The notes below the pieces were generated by a model. The model did no database searches and had not been told where the DNA came from. It was given only the letters and a program-made list of their open reading frames with translations. A program made the position numbers and the translations under genes. Positions 2,064 through 63,290 of a stretch of DNA of 64,000 bases are shown here, piece by piece. The number at the start of each line of letters is the position of its first letter. Positions within the stretch are counted from its first letter, which is position 1. The stretch lies in contig FMBT01000360.1 in the NCBI GenBank assembly GCA_900095095.1, forward strand, positions 62,001-126,000, written 5' to 3'. This DNA is from Fragilariopsis cylindrus CCMP1102 (Eukaryota; Bacillariophyta; Bacillariophyceae; Bacillariales; Bacillariaceae).

Positions 2064-2717
2064 CCATATTCCTCCTCCTCCTCCTCCGCTAACATTAGCA
2101 AAACAAGTTTCGATCGAAGTTGATATCAGTATCACGAGAATCAACATCAATGATGATAATGACGATGATGATGATATAAAACGACTTTTCTTTTTGTTAT
2201 TTATCATCGTCGCATTCGGCGTCGCATTCGTCATCGCCGTCGTCGTCATCGTTGTTGTTACACACATACACACTTATGCTTGCAACCTATCCGTCTATTG
2301 CAATTTCAATGCCAGTGCAGTGTTGCTTTCTTGTATTGCTTTCTTGTATTGCTTTGAATCGACTAAATAATATTATTATTATGATGTTTCTGTTCTTTGT
2401 TCATCTTGCTCATACAATTGTGCCGAACAGCTGGGTACGAGGTCGCACATAGAAAACACAACATCACTAACCACAAAATAGAAAATTCAAAATCAATTTA
2501 TGGACGATGACTGCCGACGCGTTCTCATTTTACGTGAATGAATGGTGAGATTGAACTCAACAAGATTCAAGATTTAGATACGCCGAAAAGAGTCGAGTAT
2601 CTGTTCGTCCTTCGTTCTGATTATAAAATAATTTATTCTTGAATTTCTAGAATATTAATTAATTCGCAACACAACACAACGACCATGGCAACAAAACAAT
2701 AATTACAGTGCCTTACC
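2064..2717. promoter_or_regulatory. Divergent intergenic region between mitochondrial carrier and PPIL4
   Basis: This holds the 5' sides of two genes that point away from each other. The open frames here on both strands are low-complexity (GAT/ATC, CCT runs) and look spurious. In the carrier frame a hydrophobic stretch (LMLILVILIS) lies just upstream of 2063, so part of this region may be coding if the carrier starts further upstream. No clear core promoter motif was recognised. Confidence 0.35.
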
Positions 2718-3507
2718 ATGTCTATCTTATTAGAAACGACACTCGGAGACTTGGTAATCGATCTTGACGTGGATGGTTCTCCTGCTCTATGTAAGAATAT
2801 TGTGAAATTGTGCAAGGTACGGTACTACACAGAAAATCTAGTTTATAACGTTCAACCGAATCGATTTTTTCAGTTGGGAGATCCTCGTGGAGATGGGATC
2901 GGAGGTGCCTGTATTTATGGTGTTTTGGATGCTTACGATACCGCACGGAAAATAAAAATAAACAATGCTGCCCAACAGAAACAAAACCAAAAACAAAATA
3001 ATAGCACTAAACCAAATGTTATGCTTAGCAAACGTCGATTCCTTAAGAGTGATATGGGACGTCCCCTAACCGAAAATGAATGTCAACAACGAGGAATGGT
3101 AGTGGCAACAGAATTAGGTGGAATCGCTGACACAATTGGTTCTCAACTTTTAATTACTATCGCTGATGGTCCTGATCGTGCATTAGATGGTTTTCGTAAC
3201 AATCACAACAACAGCAGCAGCAGCAGCAGCAATAATAACAACTTGACAACAACAACATCATCAAACGAACCGTTAACGGCACAAATATTTCGATCTGTTG
3301 GGACAGTAGTAGAAGATGACAATGATGTATTGACTAAAATGAACTCCGCATATTGTGATGCAAATGGTCGACCTTATGCAGACGTACGAGTAATTCGTGC
3401 ATTGGTCATTGACGATCCATTCGATGATCCGACCGGGATGGATCAACTACTTGTGGATCGTGGTGTTACCGTCATCAAAGTCAATAACGATGATGATAAT
3501 AATAATA

Positions 3508-3552
<45 letters not shown>

Positions 3553-4854
3553 GCAATAAACAAATGGACGACGATGACGACGACGACGAAATCATGTACA
3601 AAGTAATGGCATCTCCTGAGTATGAACGACCGCCTGAAGAGATTGTAGAAACACGAATCCGAGCTGATCAGATTGATGATGATAATGCTGACGATGAGAT
3701 TGATTTAGAAAAAATTCGAAAACAAGAAGAGGAACGCTATAAACGTGAAGATAAATCAAGAGCCGTGGTACTAGAAATGTTGGGAGATCTACCTAGTGCC
3801 GATATGACAGCACCAGAAAACGTCCTTTTCGTTTGTAAGCTTAATCCTGTAACGGAAGACGATGACTTAGATCTTATTTTTTCTCGCTTTGATGAAAAGG
3901 TTAAGGCTGATATTGTCCGAGATTCGAAGACGGGTGCGTCTCTACAATATGCTTTCGTAGAATTTACTACCAAGGAGCGAGCCACGGAGGCCTACTTTAA
4001 AATGAATAATGCGCTCGTCGACGATCGAAGAATTAAGGTTGATTTTAGTCAGAGTGTCTCTAAGGTTTGGGATAAATTTAATCAAGTCAAACGGCGAGGT
4101 TCTTCTTCCACCGACAGGAAAAATAACAATAACAACGTCATGCCTCGAGATCCTTTCAAGGAACAGAAATTGCCATTGGGGCGACCGCACCAGCATCAGC
4201 AACAACAACAACAACAGAAGCAGAAGCAGGCACCACGCCGGGACAATCGCTCTGGAAATAGCAACAACATGAGTAACGAACAAAGAAGTGGGGGAAATTC
4301 AAGCAACGACCATAATCAACGCCATCACTATCAACGTGAGGACATACATCATAGTTCATCTAATAATAGGGAGCGTAACCGCGATAGGAATAGCGCCGTC
4401 GATGGTAACAATAGAGAAAGGAATAAATCTCATCGTGATGATGAACGTCATCGATATCGTGATGATCGTCGTGATGATCGCCGTGATAATCGTACACATC
4501 CAGCACAGAGGAATCGTGATCGTGATCATCACAGTAGAGATGACGAAAATGATAGAGGAAGACCCACACGAACGAGGCAAGCATCTCCCGAAAACAATCA
4601 TCGTAGTGGGTCTAAATACGAAGAAAGATATAGAAGGGACGATAGGGATCGACGTCGTCGCAGTCGTAGTCGTAGTCGAAGCGACGACGACGACGACGAA
4701 AAAAAGGGAACGAAAACGCAGTAGAAAAAAGAGCAGCCATCGTAAGCACGAAAAACGGGATCGCAAGCACAGTCGTCACCGCGAAGTTCGCCATCATAAG
4801 GAAAGGGACTCAGGATCGAGACATCGCCGACGCAGTCCAAGTAGCTCTGTATAA
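2718..4854 (+). CDS. PPIL4: Cyclophilin-type peptidyl-prolyl isomerase with RRM (PPIL4 family), frame break near the 3' end
   Basis: A nuclear, spliceosome-associated cyclophilin. The N-terminus (MSILLETTLGDLVIDL, residues 1-170) is a cyclophilin-like domain with FFQLGDPRGDGIGG. A long acidic insert follows, including a run of Asp encoded by GAT repeats (3510-3552). The RRM at about residues 365-450 has RNP-like VLFVCKLNP and YAFVEF. The tail is rich in Arg, Ser, Asp and His like SR proteins. The uninterrupted frame stops at 4724 (ending KKGTKTQ). Directly after a run of seven A (4699-4705) the +1 frame continues as an RS/RK-rich tail, KRSRKKSSHRKH to RRRSPSSSV, ending at 4854. An extra A in the sequence is therefore likely, and the protein is about 710 residues rather than 668. 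The 3' end lies 90 bp from the convergent kinesin gene. Confidence 0.9.
3490..3552 (+). repeat. GAT/AAT trinucleotide microsatellite inside PPIL4
   Basis: An uninterrupted GAT array preceded by AAT repeats encodes an Asn/Asp run in the acidic insert between the cyclophilin and RRM domains. Length variation would stay in frame. Confidence 0.85.
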
Positions 4855-26148: not shown

Positions 26149-26543
26149 AAATTGAGTCGTGCATATTTTCAAAATAATACTGTATATATGTTTGCGACGA
26201 CGTTTTTACGCGCGCCTCAATGGATTGGTGTGAGCGATAAGTCAATATTTGTCCGTTCAAGCGGTATGTGCATCAAGAGAGGGTTTTTTGTTTTTTGCTT
26301 ACAATGTAGACAAATGAATACTCCTTTCGTTCCCAAGAAAACTTGAGTTTCTCAAAGTGCAACGGATAGGTGCCATGGAAGAGATGCTATTCGAATGCTG
26401 CCGTGGACGTAAGATAAGGATAAGACAAGACAAGACAAGAAGGATACGTGAAAAAAAAATCATAAAGTCGAATAATACCTACCATCGCACAAGCACAAAG
26501 GTGCAACGACAATAAATAAATAATAAATAGCCAACCAATAAGG

Positions 26544-27056
26544 ATGATTTTCTGGACCAGCAATACAATGTTGTTCTTCATGTTATTATTATTAGTTGCT
26601 GCTGATGAATCATCGGCTTTCGCTTTTGGTTCCGTTAAGTACAGCAGGAGTTATGCCAACAGTAAACTTCCTTTTTCTACAAATCGCAGTAACAACAACA
26701 ACAACATTAACTGGTATGCATCTTCCTATCGTGAATATCACGATTCAACTTTAATTAGATCTCGAAGACTGAACGTATTGTTATCGTCCCTTTCTATTGC
26801 CCCCACCTCCGATCTCGACACGACTGGTACTACTATTACTACTTCTACTCATTCTGAAACAAGACAACAACAACGACGACAAAAAAATAAAACAGGATAT
26901 AGAATCGGTGGTCGTAAACGAAAATCACAACAAGTAACAACAAAGAAGCATAATCTGCGTTATCGTAAACAAAATCCACAGAGAACAACAGTATATGCAA
27001 CTACACTTATTATCCTTGTGGTACTGATAATCCAAGTATATTCTCAACTGTGGTAG
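26544..27056 (+). CDS. Orphan protein with plastid address and C-terminal membrane anchor
   Basis: The 170-residue product begins with a signal peptide (NTMLFFMLLLLVAADE) followed by SSAFAFGS, a textbook diatom plastid-import motif with Phe at the cut. The middle is low-complexity (Asn, Ser, Thr) and then strongly basic (GRKRKSQQ, KKHNLRYRKQNPQR). One transmembrane helix ends the protein (ATTLIILVVLIIQVYSQLW). No family recognised; a tail-anchored thylakoid or envelope protein is one possibility. Intronless. Confidence 0.7.
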   Translation: MIFWTSNTMLFFMLLLLVAADESSAFAFGSVKYSRSYANSKLPFSTNRSNNNNNINWYASSYREYHDSTLIRSRRLNVLLSSLSIAPTSDLDTTGTTITTSTHSETRQQQRRQKNKTGYRIGGRKRKSQQVTTKKHNLRYRKQNPQRTTVYATTLIILVVLIIQVYSQLW

Positions 27057-27500
27057 AACGTTTGCAAAACTATAAAGTGAGATATATAGAATACGACGAA
27101 GCGAAGACGGGTTTGAGTTGCTTTTGTGATGGCCATTGTGACTGCGTTCGTTCGGTGCAATTATTTGTTTGACAAACAAGGGGAAAACATTTCACCTTGT
27201 TTCAAAGTATATCACCCCTTTTACGAACATGCCCCTTTATTTAATGCCGAATGCACGTTGCTACTCGGAACCGATAATGAAAAATTATTTTCGCCGAAAA
27301 TGCCGTTTGTTACTAACGGAAGCTGTATGAGAGCGCTGACTAATTCATAAAATCGAAAATCAAGGAAGATATCACGAATCAATAGAATTGATTGTACTGC
27401 AGCTGCGGTTGCACTTGTAGTAGGATCCCACAGTGTTATAATATAATTTTAACAAACACGACAATCTAACTTATCCTCATCAAATAATTAAGAGTGAGAA
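27057..27500. other. Intergenic gap upstream of the MsrB-like gene
   Basis: About 440 bp in a head-to-tail arrangement. A 74-codon frame at 27126-27350 shows no recognisable features. Otherwise nothing seen; the 3' part is the likely promoter. Confidence 0.4.
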
Positions 27501-28130
27501 ATGAAGCTTCTAAATTTAACCATGCTTAGTTTAGTAGGAACCTCCTTGTTGCGATCCTCGTCTGCCTTCGGTCCTGCTGCCTTCAGCAGAACCTCGGCTT
27601 CTGCCAACACAACTCAAAGAAATATGTTCAATCGTCTATTTGGTGCTAACACAATTAGCTCGGAGTATCCAATCATGGCCGAAGAAAGTGCTATGAGTCA
27701 AAAAGGTCATGGAACATCTGAAGCTCCCGTCCAAAAGGAATTAAGATGGAATTGTGACAATGAGACTGCTGATAGAATTTGTAACTTTAATCGTCATTAC
27801 GCCGAGTTTGGAGGATACTGGGAAAGTACTACATTTTTAAAGAGTGAAAAAGGGGATGAACCTATTAATTTTTATGACTCTGTAACTGGTGAACTTTTAT
27901 TCAAAGCACCTATTGGACGTACTATGGATGAATTTGTAAAGGAATCAAAATCTCATGGCTGGCCTTCATTTCGTGATGAAGAAGTAGTTTGGGACCATGT
28001 CCGATGCTTAAAAAATGGTGAATGTATCTCAGATAGCGGTACCCATCTTGGTCACAATCTACCAGACGGATCTGGAAATCGTTACTGTATTAATCTTGTA
28101 AGTGTTGCCGGTAATTCAAAGGATGAGTAA
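27501..28130 (+). CDS. MsrB-like methionine-R-sulfoxide reductase domain protein, plastid-type leader
   Basis: Family members reduce methionine-R-sulfoxide in damaged proteins. The leader MKLLNLTMLSLVGTSLLRSSSAFGPAAF is a signal peptide plus the SSAF-type plastid motif. The C-terminal 100 residues follow the MsrB order: SHGWPSFRDEEVVWDHV, then GTHLGHNLPDGSGNRYCINLVSV, which keeps the catalytic Cys of the RYCIN motif and the HLGH strand. Differences from canonical MsrB are that the Cys before GWPSF is absent and the zinc CxxC pairs are not intact (RCLKNGECISDSGTHLG). Activity or regeneration by thioredoxin may therefore differ. The N-terminal half has ADRICNFNRHYAEFGGYWEST, which I do not recognise. 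209 residues, no intron. Confidence 0.8.
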   Translation: MKLLNLTMLSLVGTSLLRSSSAFGPAAFSRTSASANTTQRNMFNRLFGANTISSEYPIMAEESAMSQKGHGTSEAPVQKELRWNCDNETADRICNFNRHYAEFGGYWESTTFLKSEKGDEPINFYDSVTGELLFKAPIGRTMDEFVKESKSHGWPSFRDEEVVWDHVRCLKNGECISDSGTHLGHNLPDGSGNRYCINLVSVAGNSKDE

Positions 28131-39632: not shown

Positions 39633-40907
39633 CGTGTAAAATAAATGAAACGCTGAAAGTTGATCAAATATATTCTTTGTCTACGGTCGTTTTCAAATTC
39701 GGGTACCTCTCTGGAACCTTCTCTTTCTTTCCCTACAAGCTAGTTTTATTCCTTCGGGTTGTAAAGATGGAAAGATAGGAAAATAAACACAAATAAGAAT
39801 TTCGCGAAAATGATGCCTTTTTGAATGAATCGAATACAGTATCAATCATTGATGCCGAATGCCGATTGAATGAGATTTAGGATTTGGATCATACGAATAA
39901 ATCATGTGCTTGCCATATCATACGAATGATACCTATTAGACATATGAATTGAGCGTCGAACAACTACTGCCACGTCATCCTGGCCTGCCATACGCACGCT
40001 TTACGCGTAAAGAATCTTACTATCTATACACGACTCGGAAAAAGAATTCTTAATATTCTCATTGAAAAATGAGCAGCTTTCTCAGAACTTTAATGTACGG
40101 ACAATACAAAACAAGTTCCAAATTCCAAATTCTACAGTGTTGTATACAAAGCCTCACAAAAACAACTTATCACACTCAAGTCTAAAGACGACAACACAAT
40201 CATAATCTCTATCGGATCGGATCGGATCGAATTTCCCCTAAAGGTAGGTCAAAGATCAACGAGAAAGCTCCAATAATAAATTATCGTTTCAGAGTTTTTT
40301 CTTCTTCGGAAGTCGTCATTAGACATACTGTATTGCAGTGCATTCGTGAGGTGAAATGGAATGGGAAATTTGGGTTTCGACAAGGAAAAAGAAAGAGTCC
40401 ATTTCAGTATTCAATAATCGAGACAACATACCGAAAATCAATCGATTCATTCATTCATTCTCTCTTCCGATTTTTGATTCCAAGCAACATCATTAATCTA
40501 GTGTTTTACTCTACAAAATACGATATCAACACGGCGAAACATCATTCGGAAGAGAGAAGTAATAAATTAAATTATATTGCTCAGCTCAACAACGGCATTT
40601 AGTTTTATTTATTGTTTCGTCTACTCGACTCACATCGTCTGGTCAAAAAATAAATAAAGTCATCGTTCTCATAGCAATTCGTGTGGCTGCGTGCGCGCGG
40701 TCTTCAATGGCATTTAATTATATTATGATGTCGATCTGGTCGTAAAAGTACGCGCATCACAACATATTAGACTTCGCCATGAAAAAAGAAAATATTATCT
40801 TCTTACTTTTTCTTTTTTCCCCTTCAAACAACACAACACTGCATTGTTCTCTATTTCATCTACCTTTTCTTGGCACCCATTATTTTTGTCGTCGTCAGAA
40901 GCGAAAA
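39633..40907. promoter_or_regulatory. Long divergent region between the aminotransferase fusion and the SPX-cytidylyltransferase gene
   Basis: About 1.27 kb, the longest clean gap between two divergent genes here. It contains ATCGGATCGGATCGGATCGA (40212-40231, overlapping GGATC units). Two open frames (40333-40602, and the in-frame extension from 40779) look non-coding; the latter could lengthen the SPX protein but would bury its conserved N-terminus. I could not find a convincing GNATATNC phosphate-response site by eye. Confidence 0.4.
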
Positions 40908-42286
40908 ATGAAGTTTGGAAAGACTCTTGCGGAGCGAACCTTGAAAGAGTGGCGATTTTACTATGTTGACTACAAAGAACTGAAGAAGACTATCAAGAAA
41001 GCAAAAGGACTTTCCATTCCAAAAGAGGAATTGCGAACCTCATTCGATGCAATTATTGATAATTCTGAGGAGAAACTCAGCCAATTCTATCACGATAAAT
41101 TGAGTTGGGCTACGAGCTACATTACTACTCTGGAGAAACGAGTCGAAGATTTGCGTGAATCTGCATCGGAACCAGGATCGCCTACGTCGAGTTTGAGCTC
41201 CGATGCGTCCGCATTTTCTATCGATTTTGACACCTTGTCGGGTTCGAGTCCAACTGGAATCGCCGACAATCTTCAGATACGACTAGATAAATTGTCTATG
41301 AATGAAAAAAGAAACGGAGATGGAGCCTATCTAAAGGATGCATACCGACGAATGGGTGCATCGAAGCATTTTCAAGACTATATTTATGCCAAAAAATCGT
41401 TGGTCACATTTGCACGTGAAATTGATTTACTTCTTGAATTCTTGGAGATTAATAAAACGGCCTTCTACAAAATTCTGAAAAAATTCGGCAAACATACTGG
41501 GTTCAATCTTCTAGAGGAACGTCTTGAGAAGATTCTCGAAAGAAACGCATTTCTCAATGGAGTTGATCTACGCAACTTGAAAAACACGGTTCAAAAATAT
41601 ATTGATGAGATTTCTCAGCTCAAGCCACGACTCCCCAATGGATGGGAAAATCGCAAGGTATACACTATCGGTTGCTTTGATTTATTCCATCGAGGACATC
41701 AAAATGTCCTTCTTTCTTTGAGAGAATTTGGAGCTTATGTCATTGTAGGAATCCACGACGACAACAGCTATTTTCAACTCAAAAATAAATACACCATCGA
41801 CAACATTGATACTCGCATGAAGAATCTCAAACCATTTGCTGACCAAATTTACGTCATTCCGTCGACGGACCCACTGCAATACATCCAATCTATGGTATCT
41901 GATCAGGACATTGCTAACGGATCCTGCTGCTATGCTAGAGGAGACGATATGCTTAATTTCCCATCACGTGGTAAGTTTTATATTATTTATTTGCTGTACG
42001 TATACCTTGATTTATTTATTGTCCTATTAATTTTGATTTCTGTGGTTAAAACACATGTCTCATGAACGAATTATGTTTTATCTCTGTTTCTTTCAATCTA
42101 AAAAACAAAATGGCAGAGTGGGTTGAGTCGGTCATGCCGGTCCATTTTGTTCCGAGAACTGAGGCATGTAGCTCCACTCTCATTAGAACAATCTATCATG
42201 CAGACAGTGATGAAATCGTCAAAAGGCTGCGTTTGCGAAGACAAGATACGATGGAAAGCCAATTGACGAAAACGGAAATGTGTTAA
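40908..42286 (+). CDS. SPX domain fused to a cytidylyltransferase
   Basis: Exons 40908-41970 and 42117-42286 give 410 residues; the join CACGTG-AGTGGG reads FPSREWVESVMPVHFVPRTE. Residues 1-235 are an SPX domain: MKFGKTLAERTLKEWRFYYVDYKELKK, an acidic/Ser linker, and NKTAFYKILKKFGKHTGFN with the lysine cluster that binds inositol pyrophosphates. Residues 250-385 are a nucleotidyltransferase of the CCT/ECT type: YTIGCFDLFHRGHQNVLL (HxGH at 261-264), VIVGIHDDNSY, YARGDD, and PRTEACSSTLIRTIYH, the counterpart of RTEGIST. It would therefore make a CDP-alcohol (ethanolamine, choline or similar) under phosphate control. I start at 40908 because SPX domains begin at MKFGK; an in-frame ATG at 40779 would add 43 hydrophobic residues. 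Confidence 0.92.
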
Positions 42287-42495: not shown

Positions 42496-44915
42496 CTATG
42501 CAAGTAATCGGTTCTTGGCTTGGTTAATACCTCTTCGTCCTGCTTTCGTATATTCTCGTCTGAGATTTTTCTGTCCATGCCTCATCCATTCGCTAGGACT
42601 ATTGCCAACCATTTCAATTAGACCAATTGCACTCTCAATTCCTTTCTTTCTACACTGAGATCTTAGCTTCGACAAGTATGCTTCACTTGGTGCAGCACCA
42701 TGCTTAGCGATGCATTCCTTCAAAAACAATACAGCGGATCCTACCTGTTCGTGCCTACTATAGTATTGAATAAGAGATCCATAACTTGCGATATCCAAAT
42801 ATCGACCATCTTCTTCAATTTTTTCCTTGAATTCTAGTGCTCGAGTTAGCCGTTTATTTGCAATAAGCATCTGAAGGACCAATCGATCGCTGTATGCAGA
42901 GGGTGTCTAAAAGAAGCAATCAAAAGAAAAGAAATAAGTCAGGTAAATCGTTTCGTTTCATATGCACATATATATCCATATTTCATTGTAGCTGTACTTA
43001 CTAGCTTGTGTTTCGCAAAATGGTCTGCATGATGTTCGAGAGCTTCGTTGAGAGACCCAGAGTTCGCTTTCACTTGTAACATTGAATTGAGTAGGGCCGA
43101 ATCCACCAGGCCATCTTCAGTTGCTTTGATCAATGCAAAATCCGCATTTTTCTTGTTATTCCTCTTCAGCCACCCCGACGATAATGTGTCGGGCATCGTT
43201 TCTCTGAGAATAGGTACAAGTTTCAGCATTGATGGATATCCTAACGTTTCTTCGTAAGCATCAACAATCTTCTTCAATCGACTAAGAGGCATACCAGGAA
43301 GGGCACTCTGTAGATCTTCTATTTTTGAGAGTTGTGCGGGGTCAATATTAGCTAGAAAAGCCTTCGAAACTTTATCTTCCGGGAAAACCAAATTCTTGTT
43401 CTCGTTAGTTGTAAGTTCATTACCACCGACTTTGTCATACGAAGCAATATCACGTTTGTTCTCATTGGAATCGTCGACGTGTTCATTCTGCATCATATCA
43501 AAAAGTTCTTGGACCTGAACGTCATTCAGATCAAATTTTTCATCATTATCTTCTGATTGTTTCTTCAATTCTGCAAGAAACTGGTCGTATTCTTCTGGAA
43601 TAGACGGCCCGTTTTCGTCGTCGTCTTCATCGTCATCTGATTCCAAAAATTCATCATGCATCATGTCAAACAATTCTCGAGCTTCTACTTCACTCAAATC
43701 GAACTTTTCGCCGTTTTTGGTAGCCTCGTCTTTGAGTTCAGATAGAAATTTTTCAAACATTTCCGATTGGGTGTATTGAGGTACGGAGTCTTCCTGTTGT
43801 TCGTCATAATTATATCTGATGTTTGATATTCAAGAAGATTCTGGAGCGGCTCGTTATCGTCCGAGAATAAATCATCGTCGCCGACCAAAGTACCATTCTC
43901 GTCATTCCAGCCGGTTGACTCTCTTCTTCTTCAATATCATCTTCTTCTTCAAGATCATCTCTAGTAATCAAATCTTCGTCGTCTATATAAAGACCACGAA
44001 ACTTCTTTCTTTTTCCAGGTTTTAGCTCTTCGTAATTGTCGTTTTCGTCCAGTCGACGAAGGGCACCAATGCCAACTTTCGTACTGCTTACTCCTGGTAC
44101 GCTTGTATCAACATAGCTGGGTTCCCAGCGGGTGGTAATCAAGCGTAATGAATTTTCATCAAGAGATCCCAGATTTTCTCTCCCTGCCCACATAGTACCT
44201 ATCCCGTTCTTGTTCATGGCCTGTGCGCAAGAATGCATCAATGCTGAAATCACTCTTGTATCTTTTCCGTATTCCCTTTCAGTAAATGTCGAGATGTCCT
44301 TATTGTTATTATATGACTTATTTGACTTATCTCCGATTGCTAATTTTGAGTCGATATTAGTCGTCGTCATCGCAGTCGTCCTTTCGCCAGATTCCAGCTC
44401 TTCTTGTACGTTTAACAGATGCAAATCATCAGCGTGGTCTTCAAATTTTTCCTGTCTTGATCCTCCGATCGTCCGAAGATGATCCATTTTCCGTACTTCT
44501 GACGCAAGGAGTACTGCCTTGGTAGTTGCTGAATCTCCTGCGGCTGCCGTACAGAGCATCAAAGCCGAGATAAAACCATCATCATGTTCAACTTCTGCAA
44601 CTTCAGCTAGAATAACAATTTGCCGTGCCATTTTCCCATGATGGGCGGCAGTCTTTTCTCTCAGCATGTCTCTTCGTGACGATCCTCGCTCAAACCGAAT
44701 GGCCGTCTCATGACTTCTAGCAACCGATCGAAGAGCAGCCGAGAAACAAAGAGTAGTTGGTTTCACTTCAAAGCGTTCCATATCTTCTAATAGCCCAATG
44801 GCTCGTTCCGGTTGACCCCGTGCTGCACATAGTCGAAGCATGGCTCCGTATGCCATGACTTCGTGAGTAAAACATTAGCAAGTGTAAGTTTCGTGTTGTA
44901 AGACGAAATGTTTAA

Positions 44916-44958
<43 letters not shown>

Positions 44959-45854
44959 CAGATACAGAATATACAAGATTTGGTCATCACTGAACAAATC
45001 ATGACTTACCATCGGGTTCAATCCCAACAATACGCATCTGCTGCCAATGCTTCCAGCCGAAGGCCCCGGCCTTAGCTCTGACAGCGTGGGGTATCCGGCC
45101 ATCATGGCAAATCTTGTAACATGCCGCTAAGAGTGAAGTATACGCAGGCTGTGTCGGCGCATGTCCTCCATCAGATGCCATCTCCTTCAAGACTTCACCA
45201 CAACCTTCGAAGTCTCCCAATTTAGCATGGATCTGATATTTTAAGAAATGTGAAAGGAGATATTAGATAGTACATTAGTCAGAATCGCGTACGTATAGCA
45301 GCAACAAAAAAAGCAGCTCGTTCGTTTGAAAAATATAAACAATACAAGCTTATATATATATAAATATATATATATGTATATATATATGTATATATATATA
45401 TATATGACGTACATCTACTAGAATCGACCAGCTGTAGGAAGAAATTTCATGATTGTGATCTCGCATTAATTTGAATATTCTTCGACCTTCCTGGGGTGTT
45501 CGACAACATGTCAATAATGCCGTAAAGGAGTATTCACCAAAAGCAGTAGCAGGAACTTTTAAATCTTGCAACAAATGCTGCAGGCCCTTGACAATACCAA
45601 TCGGTTTTTGTCGTGTACCATGACGATCTCGATGCGCCCGTAAGGTGTTTGAAATATCTCTATCCGTGGGAAGTGGAACAATAAGCTCTAAACTCGTCCC
45701 ATCTTCCTCGTCGTGTTTGTTGTCAATGGAGCCTCGATATGCGTCCATCTGATCGGCGACTCGATTATAAAACCTGATTGTGTTATGAAAATATGAAGGG
45801 GGGTGAGAGAGAGAGAAAGAGAAAGAGTTAGATATCGTCGTGTCGTGTTAAAGT

Positions 45855-45890
<36 letters not shown>

Positions 45891-46446
45891 TGCTAAACCA
45901 AGATCGATGATATTTCTTATGATCTTACACTCTATGTCGATGACCTAGATAGACAGGTTCGGGTGTTGGTTGACTCGTCAAATGGCTGGTATTACCCATT
46001 AGGTCTTCTAATATGGCATCTTCGTATGTATATTCTTCTTCCTCTTGTACTGCTGGTAGTAAATTGTTAGCATCAGAAGTACCATGGGCCAATAGCTGTT
46101 GCCAACGATCTTGGGCCCATTGACGTCTCGGTCCTGCCTTGGACCCTGGTGGACTTTTTCGTGCTTCTTCGTCTGATTTACGTTTCATTTTTCGATTGTA
46201 TTCTCGTCGTTTTTTCTTTGTGGTAGGACGAGGTTTGTCAAACGCCGAAGCACGATCATGTCTACGGAATCGAAGTTGCTGACGATCGATATTTAATACT
46301 ACATTATTTCGTTGAAATTGTTGATGGGCGCAGTTACTAGAGGTGGATGTCAAGTAAGAAAATTCCCTCCGATCTATTATTTTATTGTCAAATGCACGTC
46401 GTCGCAGCAACGATGATGTAGCCTGTGATAGGCAACGACGGTTCAT
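42496..46446 (-). CDS. Large pentatricopeptide-repeat (PPR) protein, probably organellar
   Basis: PPR proteins bind organellar RNA. Five exons: 45929-46446, 45413-45773, 45010-45232, 43002-44858 and 42496-42906. The start MNRRCLSQATSSLLRRRAF is Arg/Ser-rich and amphipathic, as expected for mitochondrial import. PPR-like units: FGEYSFTALLTCCRTPQEGRRIFKLM, QPAYTSLLAACYKICHDG, PDVMAYGAMLRLCAARGQPERAIGLLEDM, and IASYGSLIQYYSRHEQVGSAVLFLKE. Exon 4 also carries two similar acidic units (KFLSELKDEATKNGEKFDLS and QFLAELKKQSEDNDEKFDLN, each followed by ELFDMM). Two one-base gaps break exon 4 (about 43912 and 43813); with them filled, all phases agree and the product is 1123 residues. The repeat number is lower than in plant PPR proteins. 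Confidence 0.85.
44923..44956. repeat. (CA)n(TA)n microsatellite in PPR intron 3
   Basis: ACACACACACA followed by an uninterrupted TA array inside the intron between exons 3 and 4 of the PPR gene. Confidence 0.9.
45350..45406. repeat. (TA)n microsatellite in PPR intron 2
   Basis: TATATA array with occasional G or A interruptions, ending about 7 bp from the exon 2 splice donor. Confidence 0.9.
45859..45887. repeat. (AT)n microsatellite in PPR intron 1
   Basis: Pure ATATAT array within the first intron. A GAGAGAGAGAAAGAG tract stands nearby at 45805-45825. Confidence 0.9.
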
Positions 46447-46911
46447 ATTGTACTGCGGCCTATTTCTTTTTTATTTATTGCGTGAATCGAATCAATCGGA
46501 TTCGATGTTTGTTTTATGTTGTCAATGATTTTGTCAAAAGTCACATCCAGTGTCAATGATATTCTCAGCTTTACAGAGACGCCATTGCCGATATGTGATA
46601 TTTGAATTTTGATTTACAGTATTTGAAAATGATTTGTGATTTAAGAAAGATTGATTGTTTTTATATTCAAATTAATTTTGTGGTGGGCATGATGGAAAAA
46701 GTTGGTAGGGACTGTTATTGAGTCAGTCCCGTTTCTTTTTTTTTCGCGGAAAAATTTAGTGTAAAAGTATGCATCGTGCGTTCAAGTTATTACAACAGTA
46801 CAGGACACTTATTGCTACTACTGTAGTAAAGATGAAGGAGAGAGAGAAAGACAGGAGAGGAATAGGAAAGACACGTGGGAGTATTTTGTTTTTAGTTTTT
46901 GCTTTCAAATC
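46447..46911. promoter_or_regulatory. Divergent region between PPR and EAPP genes
   Basis: About 465 bp between divergent starts, AT-rich. TGTCAATGATTTTGTCAAAAG and GTGTCAATGATATTC are a short direct repeat (GTCAATGAT, 46519 and 46551). The AGAAAG-rich tract just before the EAPP start may be 5' UTR. Confidence 0.35.
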
Positions 46912-53300: not shown

Positions 53301-56300
53301 GAGATCCAGCAAAAAATTCTAGATCTTGGTGAGTTCCGTCAATGATCCAGTACGGGACAAAGATACAGGCAGCCCTGGTAGCAGAGGAAAATTTCTGACA
53401 GTAATGTCTGATGCTTTCATCCTCGGACTGATCAGTACCACTCGTGCCATTCCCAAATTCGAAAGCAACCGAAAGATCCAATGCCACATTATCGGCATCT
53501 GCTACCCTCATTTTTGCAAAAGTTTTTGCGTTTTCTGATCTTGTGGCCATTGCGCTATTTTCTCGTGCTGGAATATCCACAGGAGAACTCCATCCCGGGT
53601 AGCGGCGAGAGTTGTCGCCATCCGTGCCAACAAATCGTACTCTAAGTTGGACACGATCTGATGATAGAGATCCTGTCCAATGAGCTGATTCCCCACAGTC
53701 CAGTACACCAAGTTCTTCCCAGCCGGTCAGCATCACTGTGCGACTTCCGTCATTACCATTTGTCTTACCGTTGTTTGAGATCTTAGAAAGCATTTTAACT
53801 CTCACTTGTACCGCAATTGGCAAAGCGAGAAAGTTCCGGATCATCAAAGGAGATCTGAAAAAGATCATTCGTTGTTCTGGGACTTCAATCGATGAGTCTA
53901 CATGTGAAAAGCTCGCACTTCCAATTCTAACTGCGCAGGCAGTTAGGTGAACCTTCTCGTTCGAATCAACAACGGCGTCGGTCTTACGATAGGTTGCACT
54001 TGGTGGGACCAGAATGGGCAGAACAATTTCTTCTTCCCCAATCAACCCTCTTCCAAAAGATTTAGGGGAAAATGGAGGAGGAGTTGATATCTCGATGGAT
54101 TTGTCTACCAGCGAAACAATCTCTGCCTCATGCGAATATGATGAGTCACGAGAGAGTGCAGTTACAGAGAAACGGTATGACCCATCGTGTATGAAAGGAA
54201 CGATGTCTGCTGGAACTGACACAGTCCCATCTTTTCTCCCGACATTATCGCTGCCTTCCTCCTTCGGGACTAAACAGCGCCACAAAAGCGAAAGCCCACT
54301 TTCATCTCGAACCTCACAAAGAAGATCTGAATCTGCTGCACTTTTTAGAACAAACGGTGATTCTATTGAGACGACTTTAACATTTCCTCTGAGTGCAACA
54401 CGCACGATGATCCATCCCAACGCCCTGGAATTGGAGTTAGATTTTACATCAGATCTTGTCTTTACGTTCCGATCAAGAGGGTACCGATGCACCCCTACCG
54501 CATCTACTGGTATCTTAGCAGTGGCTTTAAACAAGAAATTTGTCGATCTTTTTCCTTTTGGAACATCAAAGTCGCCGTGATTTATTCTCCCGACAGTATC
54601 TTCGAAGTCACCAAGTTCAAGATAAATGTATGCTCGATGAGGATCACAAGTCTGTGAGAGTGATCTTTTGAGTGTGAGTGGTGCCTCTGAACAACTAGCG
54701 AGTATTATTTTAGCCGCATCTTCCCCACGTTTCGACCTATCATTATCCAGAACTTCTCTGAATCGTAAAGTCTAAAATATAGAGAGAAAGATAGGGTTAA
54801 AGAAAGTTCATGGTAATCGATGTGGAGAAGGTCTGAAAAACGGCGATACGATGACGTACCATTCCAGAGGCATTCCGGATTAAATGTGGGACAACCAATT
54901 TCGATCCGGTTCTTTTAGCGTTGTCAAGATAACCCATAACATTTTCGATCAAAGCACCGGTCAAATTTATGTTAAGAGGCATTCTATCCGACAGGACAGC
55001 AGAGATCGAAAACGGACCACAGATGTCGCGAGAATCGATTGTTTTTGTCGGTTGCCCAAATCCTTGGAGCCACTCCAGAGGGACCTGGGAAGGCATAGTA
55101 TCGAAAAGTTTTGACTCGGTTTCAGACTGAGAGTCAGATGATGGATACAGCGCAGATGATATTGTAGTCCGAGCTGAACTTGAAAGCATCAGATAGCATA
55201 GGTCCGAATGCGAGATAAATGTAGACCCTTTCCCATCGGCGTTAGAAGATTGAGAACTTTGAAGAAACGGAGAACGAATGAGGCGTCTTATTTCACGCAA
55301 ACGGTCCTTCCCTATCTCTGGTGGCTCACTCTCTGAGTTCTCTATACAAGACGATTCAGTTTGTACCAGTGTGCTTGATATATCTGACTCATTCTTCGTT
55401 ATTGGTTTCCAACGGCAGGCTTCTACTAAATCGACACCAAAACATACGTCTGCTGTCCAAGGCTCAATGAAGGGCTCCCAGGCAACCAAACGACGATTAT
55501 GATAGTAACCAGTAACTTGGCATGCGATCCAACCGCCAACTGTAACGCTCATTACTTCTGAACCTGAGTTGTACTGCCTTGGAGAGCCATTTTGTTGGTT
55601 TGTCCTCCTTCTTGCTATCATATTCAGATTTCGATTAATCGGAACAGCTGCAATACCCGACGACACATTTGACAATTCAAACTTAATGATAGGTGACTCA
55701 TTAAGGCGCGTCGCACCTCCTGGTACACACGTCACCAGAAATCCTTCGATCTCCATCCGACAAACCGAAGGCGAACTTTTCATCAAATCAATCAGCTTAG
55801 GCATCTGGGAATGTCTGGGGTTGATATTCGGTGCAGGACTATCCGTATCGTCTGCGAGTCTTCTGCTATCTTTCTGCTTCAGCATATCCAGAATTGGCTT
55901 GATTGAAACGCGGTAAGAATCGCTAAATCCTCCAGAGCTCTTCGAAGCAATGTAGAGCAAAACATCCACAAAGTTAGCTTTTAGATGTAAAAGTTGAGAA
56001 AACTCGACGTGGTATTCAGTACATTGAGTAGTAGCAGTATCTGCCATGGATGTGCCTGCTGCCCTGTATAAAAGCTCGAAATCGATGGGATTCGTTATCC
56101 GCTGTTCCCCGGCCACTGGCTGGCTTATTTTGAAATATATCCTTGGTAGAAGCGTGAATCTTGTTTGAGGTGAGTTATCGAGGTCCATAAGGATTATGTT
56201 GGTTCGAAGAGCTTGAAAGTTAGAAAGCTTGTAGTTTATTCTTGCCGTAAAAGCATTAACAAGTTTATAACATCTCTCTTGATCTTCAAAAAGTAATCCT

Positions 56301-59300
56301 GAATTCTGCGCTAAATATCTCGTAGAGAAATCCTTGAAGAGATCTACGTCGCCATCATCCGTAAAATTCCCATCGAGATTGAGAGTGAGCCAAGGCATTG
56401 ATGAATCATGTAAACAATCAAGAGCAAGTGCCAAGCTAAGTGATGCTTTCCACCTAAATGTTACCACACCGCAGGGATCTTTGTCACCGTTCTTGACATA
56501 CTCAATGATATCTCTTGATGACAATATGCACTCAAAAGTCTCGGCATCAGCAGATAAAATAAGATTAATATCGTTAGGATGGTGTAAGAAACGAGCAAGA
56601 GCATTGCCTTTCCCTTTCTGTTCTGAACTTGATCTCCTACTGAATCCATGCGTTTTCTTCAACCCCTCTTTCAGATCTTGAATTGATCGAAAAAATGAAG
56701 GCAACACAAGACATTGAATCTTACCCCAATTGATATGCAGCCTGATTGTCTGGACCCCATCCAAATGCATATAAAACTTGACGCGAACAAAGTACGGGAA
56801 GTCGAGACGAGCCTCTGGATCTTCGCCAATTACTCGAATCCCCTTCCCAGACGATAGGTCGAACAGAGCAGAATCTCGAATCAAAATAGATGCAGTTACT
56901 TGTTCTCCTTGACTATAGTCAATATTGACATCAGTCATCGTAAATGAAATCAGGCGTGATGCATATGCAATAGGTTTTGAGTCATTCTCGCTAAGTAGCT
57001 GTACCTCCGCATCTTCAATCAAGATTTGAAGCCCAAATTGATGCCTACCTATCATACTATTTGATGATGGAAGGAGATTGGTGGCTGAGTTGGACTCAGA
57101 ATAATCTTCTTTTCTTGATCTCGTAGACTCGGGTGTCCTAAACGATTGCGAGATATCAGCAAGCAGACCAATGATTGAAACCGATATGTTTATCTTCAGC
57201 GGCGCTACTTTTAAAAATAGCGTCCACGTCTCGTCATTTGTTTTTCGAGATTGTATTGAATTCCATCCGTATCTTGTCATCACTGCATCTATCTCGTTTA
57301 AAGAAGAATCAGCTCTCACAAGCAAAGGTAGAATGTCCTCAATGGATTCTTTAGTCGAACGAGAAATGAACTGGCTCATCAAAACAAGTTCAAATATAAC
57401 AGAGAATGGTTCTAGAATCGGCCAGTCATCATAAGATCTGATCAAAGTGATATCAGTGACTCCCATTCGAAGTGAGACACGACCTTTATATGCAGACGAT
57501 TCCTGAATACTTGTGACCACGGTAAATGCCATCAACATCTTGCTGCCGATGTCATCTGAAACATTCCATTCGTTTTTATTTTCCTCGGGAAACTTAATAT
57601 TAATTCTCCTTAAGACAACATCGATACGCCATCGTAATGGAGCATCACTAGCCAGTCGGTTTATAAAGGACATTTCGGACTTTTTTTCCGACGGTATCCC
57701 CGAATTCCCAGTCGAGATAATTTGACGTAGCTCGCGTCCGCTCTGAAGTAGCTTCGACACAGCTTCGGGGGAAGCAAGTAGAGATAGGGAGCATATTTTA
57801 ATGCCTAAGTGAACATTTCGGACAGCTCGAACAACATGTTTAGTTTCAATTTCCTGCTTCACAACTCCAACAACCCAACCTCCCCTCTCTTCAAACGGGA
57901 CAAGCTGACTTCTCAGTCGTAGTTGAAATAATGAGCTATATGGATCTCTGCGCCCAAAAAGTTCACAGCCACGACCCATTTCTAAGTTTGCAATATCCAG
58001 AATCTGAGCATTAGCACACCGAATATCAATTTGAATTCTATTCCGATCTTGTGAAGTCAGTTGGAGTAGTCGAAGCGACGATTCTGTGACAACTACGGCT
58101 CCGATGACTTGATCTTGACAAGTTAGTGCGAGTCTTATGGAAGTCAGACGAAGCGCAAGTTCATAGTATTGTTGAGATTTTTTACCTTCTCCACTTTTTC
58201 GTTAGCTTCTACGAGCGAGCTATCAGTTGTATATGAGGGGGATTTAAACAACGCCATCGCAGCTTTGACGCGACGAATACACTGGCAAATTGGAATTATA
58301 CATTTGCGAGACGGCGATACCTCGACATCCCCGACGACAAGTCGAAGTCTACAAGACTTAGTAAGATGACGGAACGATTCAGCTGATCGATGCTTCCGAA
58401 TATCCATGACACCCCGAAGAAAACGATCCTCCATAGAGTGAGCGACCAGATGTGGCAAGTGTACGGGCAAAGCAGTGTCGCTGCTCCCACCCGAAAAAAG
58501 TAATGCTGTCGAGTTGTCACATTCATTCGACATATTTGAGACGGTTGCTGTCGCCTGGTCCAGACTGAAATACAATTTTGTGTCATTCGCATAGTGAAAC
58601 AGCGCAAGTGCTACCTGGTTCACCACGAGCTCACAATCGGAAACAACCTCATCATCTAGACCATCGCAGGATTCTTTTCCAGTACGCAACGTTATTTGTA
58701 TCTCTTTTATAATAATTGAACCTTTGAACAACTCGCGGTTCAGATTTTTCATTATCATATGGCAAGCTTGATCGTCTGCGGTAGAATCGCGGCGTTTCTT
58801 CTCTCGTATGAGAGCTTTAGCCGTTCTTGCCTGTTGCATTGCAGTCGCGACAAGTGCCTCTTTCTCTAACCCTGAGTTAGGATTATCATGGTTGTCAGAC
58901 AGAAGAAAGTCTAAATCATAGCATAGAGCCTTCAATACCTTCAGCTCTGCTTTGGATCGATCGAGCTCTTGCTTTATTTTCTTTCGTTTAAGTCTACGCT
59001 CTTGACGTTCTGCGTCAGTGATATCTGAAAAGTATTGCGCATTTTCTACCAGTATGGCCGATAATTTTTTGATCATTACCTCTGACTCTTTGACACTTTC
59101 CTCTAAATCTCTTGAAAGCTTTTTTTGACCTCCAGTTGACATTGCAGAATGAAAAGAATCGTCATCAATTTCTTTACCACTTTCTGCAACGGAGTCGTCT
59201 TCTCCGACGTCTTCCTCTAATCGTGCTAAATTTTCAGCATTAAGGTAGCCATTTTGACCACCTCTACGATTCTTGGAATGGTCGGACATCGACGATACGT

Positions 59301-62300
59301 CAGATATCGATGGTTGTCTACGACGATGTCGACGGTCGTTCGAGGACCCGCCACTCTCTCCATCGATAACACTCTCTGCGTCTGCTATCCAATTATCTTC
59401 GAACCAAATACCCGAGTTTTCTCCACCTACAGATTCAGAACCTTCACGTGCATCGAAAAATTCACCCTCGTCGATTTCACTGTCTGTCTCGGAACTGTCG
59501 CTGTTATTTTGGAACGAAGTCTTTGTGAAATCGTGAATATATGGACCTCTCTTTCCATTTAAACTCGTTGACTTATTTGACGCACGTCTATATGTTTGCG
59601 AGGCTACATCAGCATGGACCAGCGATTTCCATATCTTCACTGCGACCCCAAAACGCGAAAGTAAGTCTTCGTTCAGGACCAGTTTCATTCTACCAATGAT
59701 TGTATGAGCCTTGAGTTTGCACAGAGTGTGATCTGTTGGAATAACGGATTTTTGAATTGTTGTCCGCAATTTGATCCCCGTGGATATATCAAATATCTCG
59801 GTCTCTCCACAAAACGTAACCTTGCCAGTCTGAAGACGCAACAGGTACTTATCGTAGAAGAGTTCTTCTATGTTTGATTCTTGTTGACTATTCTTTCTCT
59901 CAGAGTCTGGCTGTTTAGATGGGAATGCATCGTCAAGATCGAAGCTACCAGAGAATGATTGATTTCCTCTTTCACTAACCTGAAGAGTTCCTATAGACAT
60001 GGCCGATGAAATCCTGTGATTTTGAACCGAATTTCGTAAGGATTTGGGTGAACGAAAGATAGAGGATGGTATCCTAGGCGACCTGGAACCATTGAATGAG
60101 CTTTCATCTGTACTGTTTTGTCGTAGTTGTGGTAAAATGAGATCATCTAGAACCGAGTCTTCGTATTTTATCAAGGGAAGCTTGTTGAACTTGTTCCGAG
60201 AGATACCTGCTAGCCTGTCAGTCTTCAAAGATAATACCCCCAAGTCAATTACTAAATCAGAGGTATCTCCCATGCCTATTCGAAGAACAGGACAATGCAT
60301 GTTGATGTCAACATCCAGATTCTCATGATCAGATGCAGCAGACTCAGCCTTAGCCATTAGTCCTAATTTCCCGAGTGTCAGAGAATTGAGATATGCGAGT
60401 GATAGTTCTCCCCAGAATTTTTCCACATTTGGAGCTGTCGTTACTTCTCTCATAACCCCTTCAAGTGTGCCAACCATTGGCAGTCTGGATTCATATTAAT
60501 CTCAAGAGGATTGAGCAACATGCGAAGTTCTTTGTTTACTTCTGGGTTTGTCGGCGGATTTTTTGCAAATGCAAAGATAAACAATGGGTTTTGTTCATCG
60601 CTATCATCAAAAGATCTGGTAGTTTCTTTCTTCAGTTGACTTGCAACCACGTATTGGCTCTTATCCATCCGAATCTCAGATACAGTTAAGTCTGTAACAG
60701 AAAGCTCTAAATCGAATTTCTTGTAGTCACCTTTTAAAGACCCACCTATTTTAGTAACTTGACTATTGAGCTCGAGAAATTTTTCGTGCAGTCGTTTCAG
60801 TTGCGTTTCCTCCGCAGTATATACAGCGGCGAAAAGAGTGCAAAGCGCACTTCTTCCACTTGTATCGTTACTGATATTGCTGTAAGTGAGTCATTCCTAA
60901 CTCCAGGCATATATTCACTATTCGGCACTTCGTCAAGGTATTGTAACAGTCTACCGAATTCGTCTCTTGCTCGATGTCGTCTAATGTAGCATCCCGCACG
61001 GTGTCTTTCCACCACGAAGATCTAGAAGATCGCATGATACTATTACTTCCATCAGGGTTCTAACGCACGAAGATCCTCCGTTTTTCATCCTGACCAGAGC
61101 TCGATATAATATGATATCTGTAACAGACAAATCACCGCGTTCGCCATCTTCCATGTCTTGCATTTCATTGGTTTCTTGTGGGGTCAATGGAGTCGAAAAC
61201 TGATCATCCGTGTCATCTGGCGAGGATTCAGATGAAGTGTTCAATTGTCGTATCCTTCTTTCATAAAGTTTCATATACCGTGATCTTATGGCATACTTTT
61301 TCTGGAATCTACTCCATGACCACCTCAAGAAATTTTCTCTCAATTCAAACTGAATGACTCGAGCGGCATAACACCACCAGGCCTTCGAATCTTCCAATAC
61401 AGAAAATCTTGGACGAAATTTTCGATACTTCTTGACAAAATTGAAATTTTTTCGTTCTGCATATAGTCTTAACATTTGAACACATTGAAAGTCTCTTAGA
61501 TTGGTGGATATGCAGTCGAGTTCGATGGTAACATCGATAGCAGGCCTTAAACTGAGATCTTTCGGGGTGTTGGAAAGCAAAAAAGTGAGCTGACCCCCGA
61601 CCGGTAGAAGTATAAAGGTATGTGTTGGAGTATATGATTCTTTAGAGGGAGAGGACATTAAACTACCCCTCCTTACAATACACAAATCCAGGGCCCCGGA
61701 CATTTTTCCTAGATTGCCAGCACAAGTCTCATGAAGAACCGAGTGTTCAACGGGCAAACTATCTCCATACCCCAGTGCATTCCAATATGCAGCAAAGTGA
61801 TTTATTTGTGCGACTTTTGCGACAACGGCATTATCGTTGGAAGCTTGTTCGTCCTTTTTTGTGTCGGCATGCTGCACGTGCATGCTTTCCATCGTAATAC
61901 CAAAGGCAAATGGATTTTCGGGATCCGATTCATTGTCCTCGATTCGAATATGCAAATCCCGAATATGAATGTGAACCTTCTCCGCAATCTCCTGTATCAA
62001 TCCACTAGTTATTCGTTCTTTCAATATTTCTGTGTAAGTTTTGTTTCCCTCGAGTGAAACATAATTCTCATCACCTATATCTGTTGATGACTTTGCAAAG
62101 TTTTCTGATCTCGACAAGGCCTGCCTTCGCTTTTTGATTTCTTCTGACCTTAATTCCTCGTCGTGGAATGCAAAAGAGGTGCGGAATAAAACATGGACAC
62201 CATCTAAGACCAAGACGACGGCTGCTTCTGGACTGGAAGGCGATCTACCGATACCATTGCCACTGCTGATTGGATTAGACAATTTTGCCCAAGGGATAGT

Positions 62301-62528
62301 TATTTCCAATTGACGTAAGGAGCAATGGACAAGCTCAAAAGGTTGCCCTTTTCCTCGTAGCTTCGCATTAATAATTTCTTTTTTCACCTCCAAATTTTGT
62401 AGGGAAATGTAACCACTCCAAATTCCTAACTGTGCCGATTGCGTTGCCTTATTCTTGGCCAATGATTCATCTGTGAAATATTTCGAGAGGGTTTTGGAGA
62501 GAACATTTCCTGCAAGTTTCTCAAACAT
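50337..62528 (-). CDS. VPS13: VPS13-family bridge-like lipid transfer protein, two exons, many frame breaks
   Basis: Giant rod protein that moves phospholipids in bulk between membranes at contact sites. Exons 54860-62528 and 50337-54771, one intron of 88 nt (GMETHIONINE codon then GTACGT, TTTTAG-ACT). The N-terminal chorein domain is clear: MFEKLAGNVLSKTLSKYFTDES, LGIWSGYISLQNLEVKKE, LEITIPWAKL. Then come the long beta-groove repeats, an acidic/Ser linker (EDDSVAESGKEIDDDSFHSA) and the adaptor/SHR-BD region with DFAWDEPELHRRALIIKASG. After it: KWRIRVLPTYTRGF and EPIFVNVDGELAGLLFRM. I count nine one-base frame breaks (about 61013, 60968, 60833, 60462, 58180, 52489, 52358, 52170-52240 and 51801): eight look like a missing base, one (52170-52240) like an extra base. 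The net correction gives an intact product near 4036 residues, in the family range. Confidence 0.9.
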
Positions 62529-63290
62529 GATGTTATTGATTTACTATGACACAAAGCATTTGACACTAGTCCTACAGATGCGTTAACTGAATTGAAGGCA
62601 TCACATCGAGATAACGACTTCTGTCGCCAATGGTTTGTGTCGTTGTTTGATTAGCTATTACTACAAGTAGCTTATTAGACTTGTTCAATTAATTTGAGCG
62701 TCGTGAAAATTGAATCCTGATGCTTTTCATTGATGTTTTACTCCTTCACAAACATACTTTTTTGATTTACTGCGGTCTAATTGAATACGTAATGTTTTCA
62801 AAAGGCGAACTCTTAAAAACAAATCAAAAGGATATGTTTTTAATTAATTGATAGAAACTACTATACTTCAAAGTACTGTAGTACAAAAACACAATATTTA
62901 AACATACACACAATTGAATATAACATAAGGAGGGCATTTTCTATGCAGTAGAGAGAATAACCCAGACTTCAATACACTGCTACTATGCATAGTCAAATAT
63001 ATTCAAGTACTTGTATTCTTGGCATCAACTGCTTTAAAATGCCCCTCAATTTTGCCCTATTCAGCTTGAGCATGGTGACTCTATGGTACAGTAAAGAGAA
63101 CAGCAATGCTACTCCTTGTAGCTTCATTAGTTTCTCTGTGAGATGAGCGATCAGCTTCTCTACTCGCCCAACCTTATAGTTGAATCTACTATTCGAAAGA
63201 TTTTGATCATATTATTTCGATTCTTAGATTGCTTTATTTAACTTTTTAGCATCTAATAAATGATATTTCGTATCTTGTTATTTTTATATT
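62529..63290. promoter_or_regulatory. Intergenic gap upstream of VPS13
   Basis: About 760 bp between LEO1's 3' end and the VPS13 start. AT-rich with no open frame of note. Presumed VPS13 promoter and LEO1 3' flank. Confidence 0.4.

Follow-up and report, generated by a model that had tools for sequence, protein, structure and literature searches.

The partner domains of SPX have been surveyed in algae and plants, and the surveys name EXS, MFS, RING, VTC, SLC, CitMHS, DUF202, Na_sulph_symp, EIN3, S6PP, Kelch, BET and Sugar_tr (PMC8717665, PMC12388464); the string 'cytidyl' is absent from the main texts of both. In P. tricornutum, five of the six SPX genes are reported to carry another domain, Vpt1 and Vtc4 among them (PMC8233357). 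The main text of that paper likewise lacks 'cytidyl', and a fusion of the kind described below may be tabulated in its supplementary table. A filtered UniRef set has been grouped by the domain adjoining SPX (PMC10167327), with no occurrence of 'cytidyl' or 'nucleotidyl' in the main text, and three further papers name an SPX domain and a cytidylyltransferase as separate genes (PMC12168105, PMC8299696, PMC5253468). We found no description of an SPX-cytidylyltransferase fusion in the accessible portions of the open-licence PMC literature. SPX-fused enzymes are a known kind, and we provisionally regard a cytidylyltransferase-type domain as a new partner among them. Entries that combine SPX with CTP_transf_like may exist in database domain listings, where the architecture could have gone unremarked.

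In our judgement, control in cis has been proven for few of the SPX-fused enzymes treated in the accessible portions of the literature. The VTC polymerase, which bears SPX domains, is activated when inositol pyrophosphates break a contact between them; ligand binding is described as moving SPX helix 1 and freeing a distal helix, which relieves inhibition (PMC10167327). In Gde1 of S. pombe, mutations in the ligand site relieved inositol-pyrophosphate toxicity, as did mutations in the catalytic site, and according to the authors catalysis might not strictly depend on binding of ligand by SPX (PMC8749416). Phytoplankton under phosphate stress are reported to break down phospholipids and to make sulfur- and nitrogen-lipids, thus cutting their phosphorus demand, and a stand-alone SPX protein of P. 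tricornutum acts on gene expression to hold this lipid remodelling back (PMC8233357).

Domain order and proposed mechanism

Within the window (the whole 64-kb stretch of DNA that was analysed), one gene places an SPX domain ahead of a nucleotidyltransferase domain (Table 1), and joining its two exons gives a predicted product of 410 residues. Judged from the nucleotide sequence, the fusion of these two domains in one gene is close to certain. A preliminary description of this DNA had put SPX and a cytidylyltransferase-type domain in the same exon, and both the open frame of exon 1 and the Pfam matches reported below bear this out. Because SPX and the HxGH motif lie together inside exon 1, the fusion is independent of the splice prediction.

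Table 1. Coordinates, within the window, of the gene and of its sequence features.
Feature	Positions	Strand	Residues and remarks
Exon 1	40908..41970	+	1063 nt, single open frame; residues 1-354 and first base of codon 355; SPX and most of the nucleotidyltransferase domain
SPX N-terminal part	40908..41009	+	residues 1-34; MKFGK start, with Y22, K26, K30
Serine-rich low-confidence insert in SPX region	41163..41276	+	about residues 86-123; pLDDT <50 over residues 92-123 in model
SPX lysine cluster KILKKFGK	41469..41492	+	residues 188-195 (K188, K191, K192, K195); invariant alignment columns
HRGH catalytic motif (HxGH)	41688..41699	+	residues 261-264
Intron	41971..42116	+	146 nt, GTAAGT...GGCAG, 26% G+C; TagD homology continues across
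Exon 2	42117..42286	+	residues 355-410 with CTP-site motif; stop TAA 42284-42286
RTEACSST	42155..42178	+	residues 368-375; counterpart of RTEG(I/V)ST(S/T) CTP-binding signature

We propose, with a probability of roughly 0.45, that the protein is a two-module, phosphate-gated cytidylyltransferase that makes a CDP-alcohol and is more active when phosphate is plentiful; we infer its substrate, the gating by SPX and the direction of gating. The SPX module would bind inositol pyrophosphates, chiefly InsP8, whose level tracks cell phosphate, and the bound ligand would displace SPX helix 1 together with the helices leading on to the catalytic domain. Without ligand the enzyme would be held inactive, whereas with ligand it would make a CDP-alcohol (CDP-ethanolamine, CDP-choline or CDP-glycerol) for the synthesis of membrane lipids or related compounds. 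Phosphate shortage would lower InsP8, and head-group activation would fall. The direction of this switch, off at low and on at high phosphate, is suggested by analogy with relief of inhibition in VTC. If true, an SPX-gated cytidylyltransferase would form a direct enzymatic link from phosphate supply to the building of membrane lipids. That a heterokont enzyme uses an inositol-pyrophosphate receptor to gate CTP-dependent activation of phospholipid head groups within one polypeptide, without a transcriptional step, is a somewhat doubtful proposition; were it to hold, the SPX module would stand in for the lipid-sensing tail of animal CCT.

The known SPX-fused enzymes resemble this protein in part. 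In Vtc4 (SPX-polyphosphate polymerase) the SPX domain likewise precedes a catalytic domain, and the Vtc4 complex is reported to be activated by inositol pyrophosphates (PMC10167327). However, the catalytic domain of Vtc4 is a different one, and the protein is membrane anchored and works in a complex with other SPX subunits. Fungal Gde1 (SPX-ankyrin-glycerophosphodiester phosphodiesterase) shares with the query an N-terminal SPX domain and an enzyme of phospholipid head-group metabolism, but it degrades glycerophosphodiesters with an unrelated catalytic domain and carries ankyrin repeats in between, whereas the nucleotidyltransferase of the query is joined directly to SPX.

Nucleotidyltransferase half and candidate substrates

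The catalytic half matched Pfam CTP_transf_like (PF01467; E 5.9e-12, 46.4 bits vs a cut-off of 21) over residues 252-379, a stretch that spans the splice and is the only one of its family in the protein. It also passed the cut-off of the general NCBIfam domain model TIGR00125 (37.9 vs 27.7 bits). When the whole query was compared with solved chains, the best single-stretch matches were to TagD/GCT (29.9 bits, residues 249-378) and to domain 1 of human ECT (28.8 bits), with 19.6 bits for ECT domain 2; the catalytic half alone scored 31.1 bits against ECT and 32.5 bits against TagD. Whole-sequence E values were 2e-12 for human ECT, 2.9e-6 for TagD and 0.0097 for rat CCT. We rejected human ECT as the closest solved relative, because its E value of 2e-12 sums two tandem domains and per domain it is no closer than GCT. 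With the preference for ECT dropped, the candidate product was widened to any CDP-alcohol. Domain for domain, the bacterial GCT and human ECT sequences match the query about equally.

Each of these enzymes also departs from the query. TagD/GCT (1coz, 2b7l) has a similar single-domain size and an aligned PRTE...ST, but it has no SPX, and the query fell under the equivalog cut-off of the NCBIfam GCT model (TIGR01518; E 9.5e-8, 32.2 bits vs 165.4). PCYT2/ECT (3elb, 4xsv) shares the Rossmann fold, the HxGH motif and the single-domain match, but full-length ECT consists of two tandem domains and is not known to carry SPX; both of its domains were matched here by the one CTP_transf_like stretch of the query, whose signature motif differs. 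CCT (3hl4, 4mvc, PfCCT 4zcp) shares the catalytic fold and the plan of an enzyme with an added regulatory module, which in animal CCT is a lipid-binding tail. In contrast to TagD and ECT, CCT gave a weaker match; its RTEG(I/V)ST(S/T) is altered in the query, and SPX is present instead of the tail. Because this signature is called strictly conserved in CCT (PMC6060094), the query is not a canonical CCT. PCYT2 is reported in several diatom genomes (PMC9765203), so this gene would encode an additional enzyme if PCYT2 is also present here.

A different substrate has to be weighed against a CDP-alcohol. The top NCBIfam match was rfaE_dom_II (TIGR02199), an adenylyltransferase domain, at E 6.7e-10 and 39 bits vs a cut-off of 181.5. 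We folded exon 1 with a 47-row alignment (46 relatives) that covered the catalytic half only, and obtained a mean pLDDT of 69.3, with ten-residue block means of 85-97 over residues 251-330 and of 42-75 past residue 330, where exon 2 is missing. A Foldseek search with this model returned 15 matches at E <0.001, all partial-length matches to GCT, CCT, HldC (5xf2) and ECT chains, and a further match to the Fom1 cytidylyltransferase (5x3d, E 2.4e-3). The rfaE_dom_II match, and the presence of HldC and Fom1 beside GCT, CCT and ECT, favour a phosphate-gated nucleotidyltransferase acting on a phosphonate such as 2-aminoethylphosphonate or on a sugar phosphate of the heptose-1-phosphate type; ATP might replace CTP, and the product would serve glycans, phosphonolipids or other compounds. 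The report of PCYT2 in diatoms points the same way, since a second enzyme need not make CDP-ethanolamine. Nevertheless, we consider a substrate other than a CDP-alcohol rather unlikely. R368-T369 agrees with RT in the CTP motif; counting the query, 45 of 165 aligned rows have this RT, and all 51 rows across the deepest split of the catalytic-domain tree lack it. The best single-stretch matches among solved chains are GCT and ECT.

The catalytic-domain loci retained were the best 80 of at least 359 confirmed viral and the best 80 of at least 388 confirmed prokaryotic ones, and their identities ranged from 24% to 52%, with the high values over short stretches. A search pattern around HxGH brought up two viral contigs; the first encodes a GCT-like enzyme, the second a kinase-nucleotidyltransferase fusion that resembles HldE. 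For the tree, 164 locus segments and the query were reduced to 110 rows at a 70% identity threshold, and two solved fragments were added (112 rows). In it the query had a long branch (1.96) and fell between two groups, an HldE-like half and the 56 rows that include the GCTs, with starred branches on either side. Two other long rows and human ECT domain 1 share an open fork with it, and the program warned of long branches meeting at this point. The tree was not counted as substrate evidence.

For the proposed cytidylyltransferase, the published family motifs are HxGH, RTxGISTT and RYVDEVI; in TagD, His14, His17 and Arg113 are reported as essential, and Lys44 and Lys46 contact the phosphates of CDP-glycerol (PMC8262930). 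Residues of the query that agree with those common in the family are HRGH, D258, D285, K292, R303, D347, R368, T369 and S373. The HRGH that the preliminary description had given at 261-264 does begin at residue 261, and the PRTEACSST that it had placed after the splice was recovered in exon 2 as residues 367-375. The two TagD lysines have counterparts in K292, which aligned with K44, was taken as the equivalent of PfCCT K663 and lies in a column where 163 of the 165 aligned rows have K or R, and K294, a position that is K in 78 of 165. The CTP signature RTxGIST(S/T) is changed: RTEACSST keeps the R, T, S and last T, with G replaced by A, I by C and T by S. The dimer-interface motif RYVDEV(I) reads P309-FADQI, with P309 where TagD has R63, and D312 and similar residues are kept. 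With two of the three published motifs altered, the earlier claim of an intact cytidylyltransferase core goes slightly too far, although HxGH, the Arg-Thr of the CTP motif and the lysines that bind phosphate are retained.

These alterations, that is, the three substitutions in the CTP signature and the degenerate dimer motif, would also fit a pseudo-enzyme or scaffold, in which an inactive catalytic half binds nucleotide or dimerises while SPX contacts partners such as a PHR-type factor. This is improbable given that HxGH, K292, R303, D347, R368 and T369 are all kept, and that S in place of the T of the CTP signature is common (75 of 165 aligned rows). We concluded that the catalytic half is probably a divergent, CTP-using CTP_transf_like enzyme, and that catalysis by this half is likely.

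SPX half and its predicted ligand site

The N-terminal half matched Pfam SPX (PF03105; E 1.3e-17, 65.3 bits vs a cut-off of 27.8) in two stretches, the better of which covered residues 1-33. A phmmer search with this half alone matched 17 distinct sequences of solved chains up to E 10, led by 5ijp (1.8e-8; Chaetomium Vtc4 by title) and followed by 7e40 (SPX1) and 5ijj, which is the SPX domain of Gde1 (PMC7810988, PMC10167327). The lysine cluster was included in the alignments, as was the N-terminal part.

We compared the ligand site in a five-row alignment of the query and four solved SPX pieces, all four of which share the MKFG start of the query. AtSPX1 is not a row of this alignment; its residues were mapped by the N-terminal motif and the KxxKKxxK spacing. 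The phosphate-binding cluster (PBC) of AtSPX1 is described as Y25, K29 and K139, and its lysine surface cluster (KSC) as K136, K140 and K143 (PMC7810988). The equivalents in the query are Y22, K26 and K191 for the PBC and K188, K192 and K195 for the KSC, and all of them are invariant in the five rows. Two more residues, K30 and N182, have the same letters as positions reported to be ligand-related in other SPX proteins (PMC10167327, PMC8749416), which were left unaligned. Similarly, the ligand residues Y21, K25 and N139 that were mutated in S. pombe Gde1 (PMC8749416) appear to correspond to Y22, K26 and N182, by eye and unaligned. The intact SPX domain with a lysine cluster of the preliminary description was therefore upheld, both by the Pfam match and by conservation of six of the six ligand residues. 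We concluded that the SPX half is a receptor-type domain in which the residues of a predicted inositol-phosphate site are present.

The exon-1 model gives the SPX part a helical structure that comprises an N-terminal hairpin and two long helices (39-86 and 153-197), although block means there are 32-79; further helices, at 200-237, come before the first strand of the Rossmann domain (250). Folded alone from the single sequence (mean pLDDT 60), the SPX half gave no Foldseek match at <0.001, and the best SPX row was 5ijp at 0.28.

SPX may have a role other than gating. In a 2020 review, regulation of yeast Gde1 by its SPX domain is described as unconfirmed (PMC7381174). One in-vivo effect is reported not to require the inositol-pyrophosphate site of Vtc4, and Gde1 that lacks its site is reported to retain part of its function (PMC8749416). 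On this evidence the query could be an active cytidylyltransferase whose SPX is constitutive or locating, anchoring the enzyme or binding polyanions without gating its activity. We judge this very unlikely, because all six ligand residues are conserved, and the residues of a functionless site would be expected to diverge.

Gene model, relatives and neighbouring genes

Twelve GT/AG pairs would put RTEACSST in frame. The consensus donor belongs to the pair 41971/42116, and the phmmer alignment to TagD passes through that junction. The G+C content of the intron was 26% vs 41% and 45% in the exons. If this intron (41971-42116) were retained, the frame at 41971-42065 would add 31 residues that run into a strongly hydrophobic tail (19 residues with a mean Kyte-Doolittle value of 2.8), and the CTP motif would be lost; the product could be a membrane-anchored, catalytically incomplete isoform, or the tail could be a mere effect of the A+T-rich intron.

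An in-frame ATG at 40779 lies 129 nt upstream of the SPX start, and 40779-40907 codes for a hydrophobic leader (MKKENIIFLLFLFS...). Because use of this ATG would hide the MKFG N-terminus behind that leader, we infer that the start at 40908 is to be preferred. The stretch 40779-40907 is probably 5' untranslated, and would add a signal-like sequence if the ATG at 40779 were used.

The gene model was drawn from genomic sequence, and read-through of the intron would stop the protein after the hydrophobic tail, but it is extremely improbable that the fusion is an artefact of two proteins on separate mRNAs, or of a short SPX protein with an alternative end, since one unspliced stop-free frame of 439 codons, stop to stop, holds both SPX and HxGH (P ~9e-13 in random sequence of the same base composition).

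We searched for relatives of the fused gene in viral and prokaryotic collections. No close relative of exon 1 was found in viral contigs (10 pattern-matching stretches) or in prokaryotic genome contigs (106 stretches). The five-row SPX alignment picked out 115 stretches in viral contigs and none was a relative, where confirmation was by tblastn with the window sequence only, so that a distant SPX would be missed. An SPX HMM run on six-frame translations of 162 loci and the window matched the window only, which is contained in the HMM by construction, and this search had no independent positive control. Against phages, tblastn gave three weak matches, all to the catalytic half. That is, the viral and prokaryotic contigs yielded no relative of the SPX-cytidylyltransferase fusion; these collections contain few eukaryotes, and the result has little bearing on other algae.

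The rest of the window carries further eukaryotic genes. These include kinesin and UFD1, a single open frame at 2703-4721 (+) in which a cyclophilin-type isomerase domain precedes an RNA recognition motif, and a large VPS13-like lipid-transfer protein in several frames at 54800-62540 (-), with VPS13_N at 60984-62540 (9.7e-52) and a VPS13_M match below cut-off at 54800-58201 (-). The kinesin, UFD1, VPS13 N-terminal region and cyclophilin-RRM frame indicate a nuclear genome; a diatom origin is likely. Adjoining frames at 42496-46470 (-) look like exons of a single gene; they have acidic low-complexity stretches and PPR-like matches that fall short of the Pfam cut-off. Two short frames at 26520-27053 and 27498-28127 (+) have leaders with SSAF motifs (e.g. 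...SSSAFGPAAF at 27498), which we take to resemble diatom plastid-targeting presequences.
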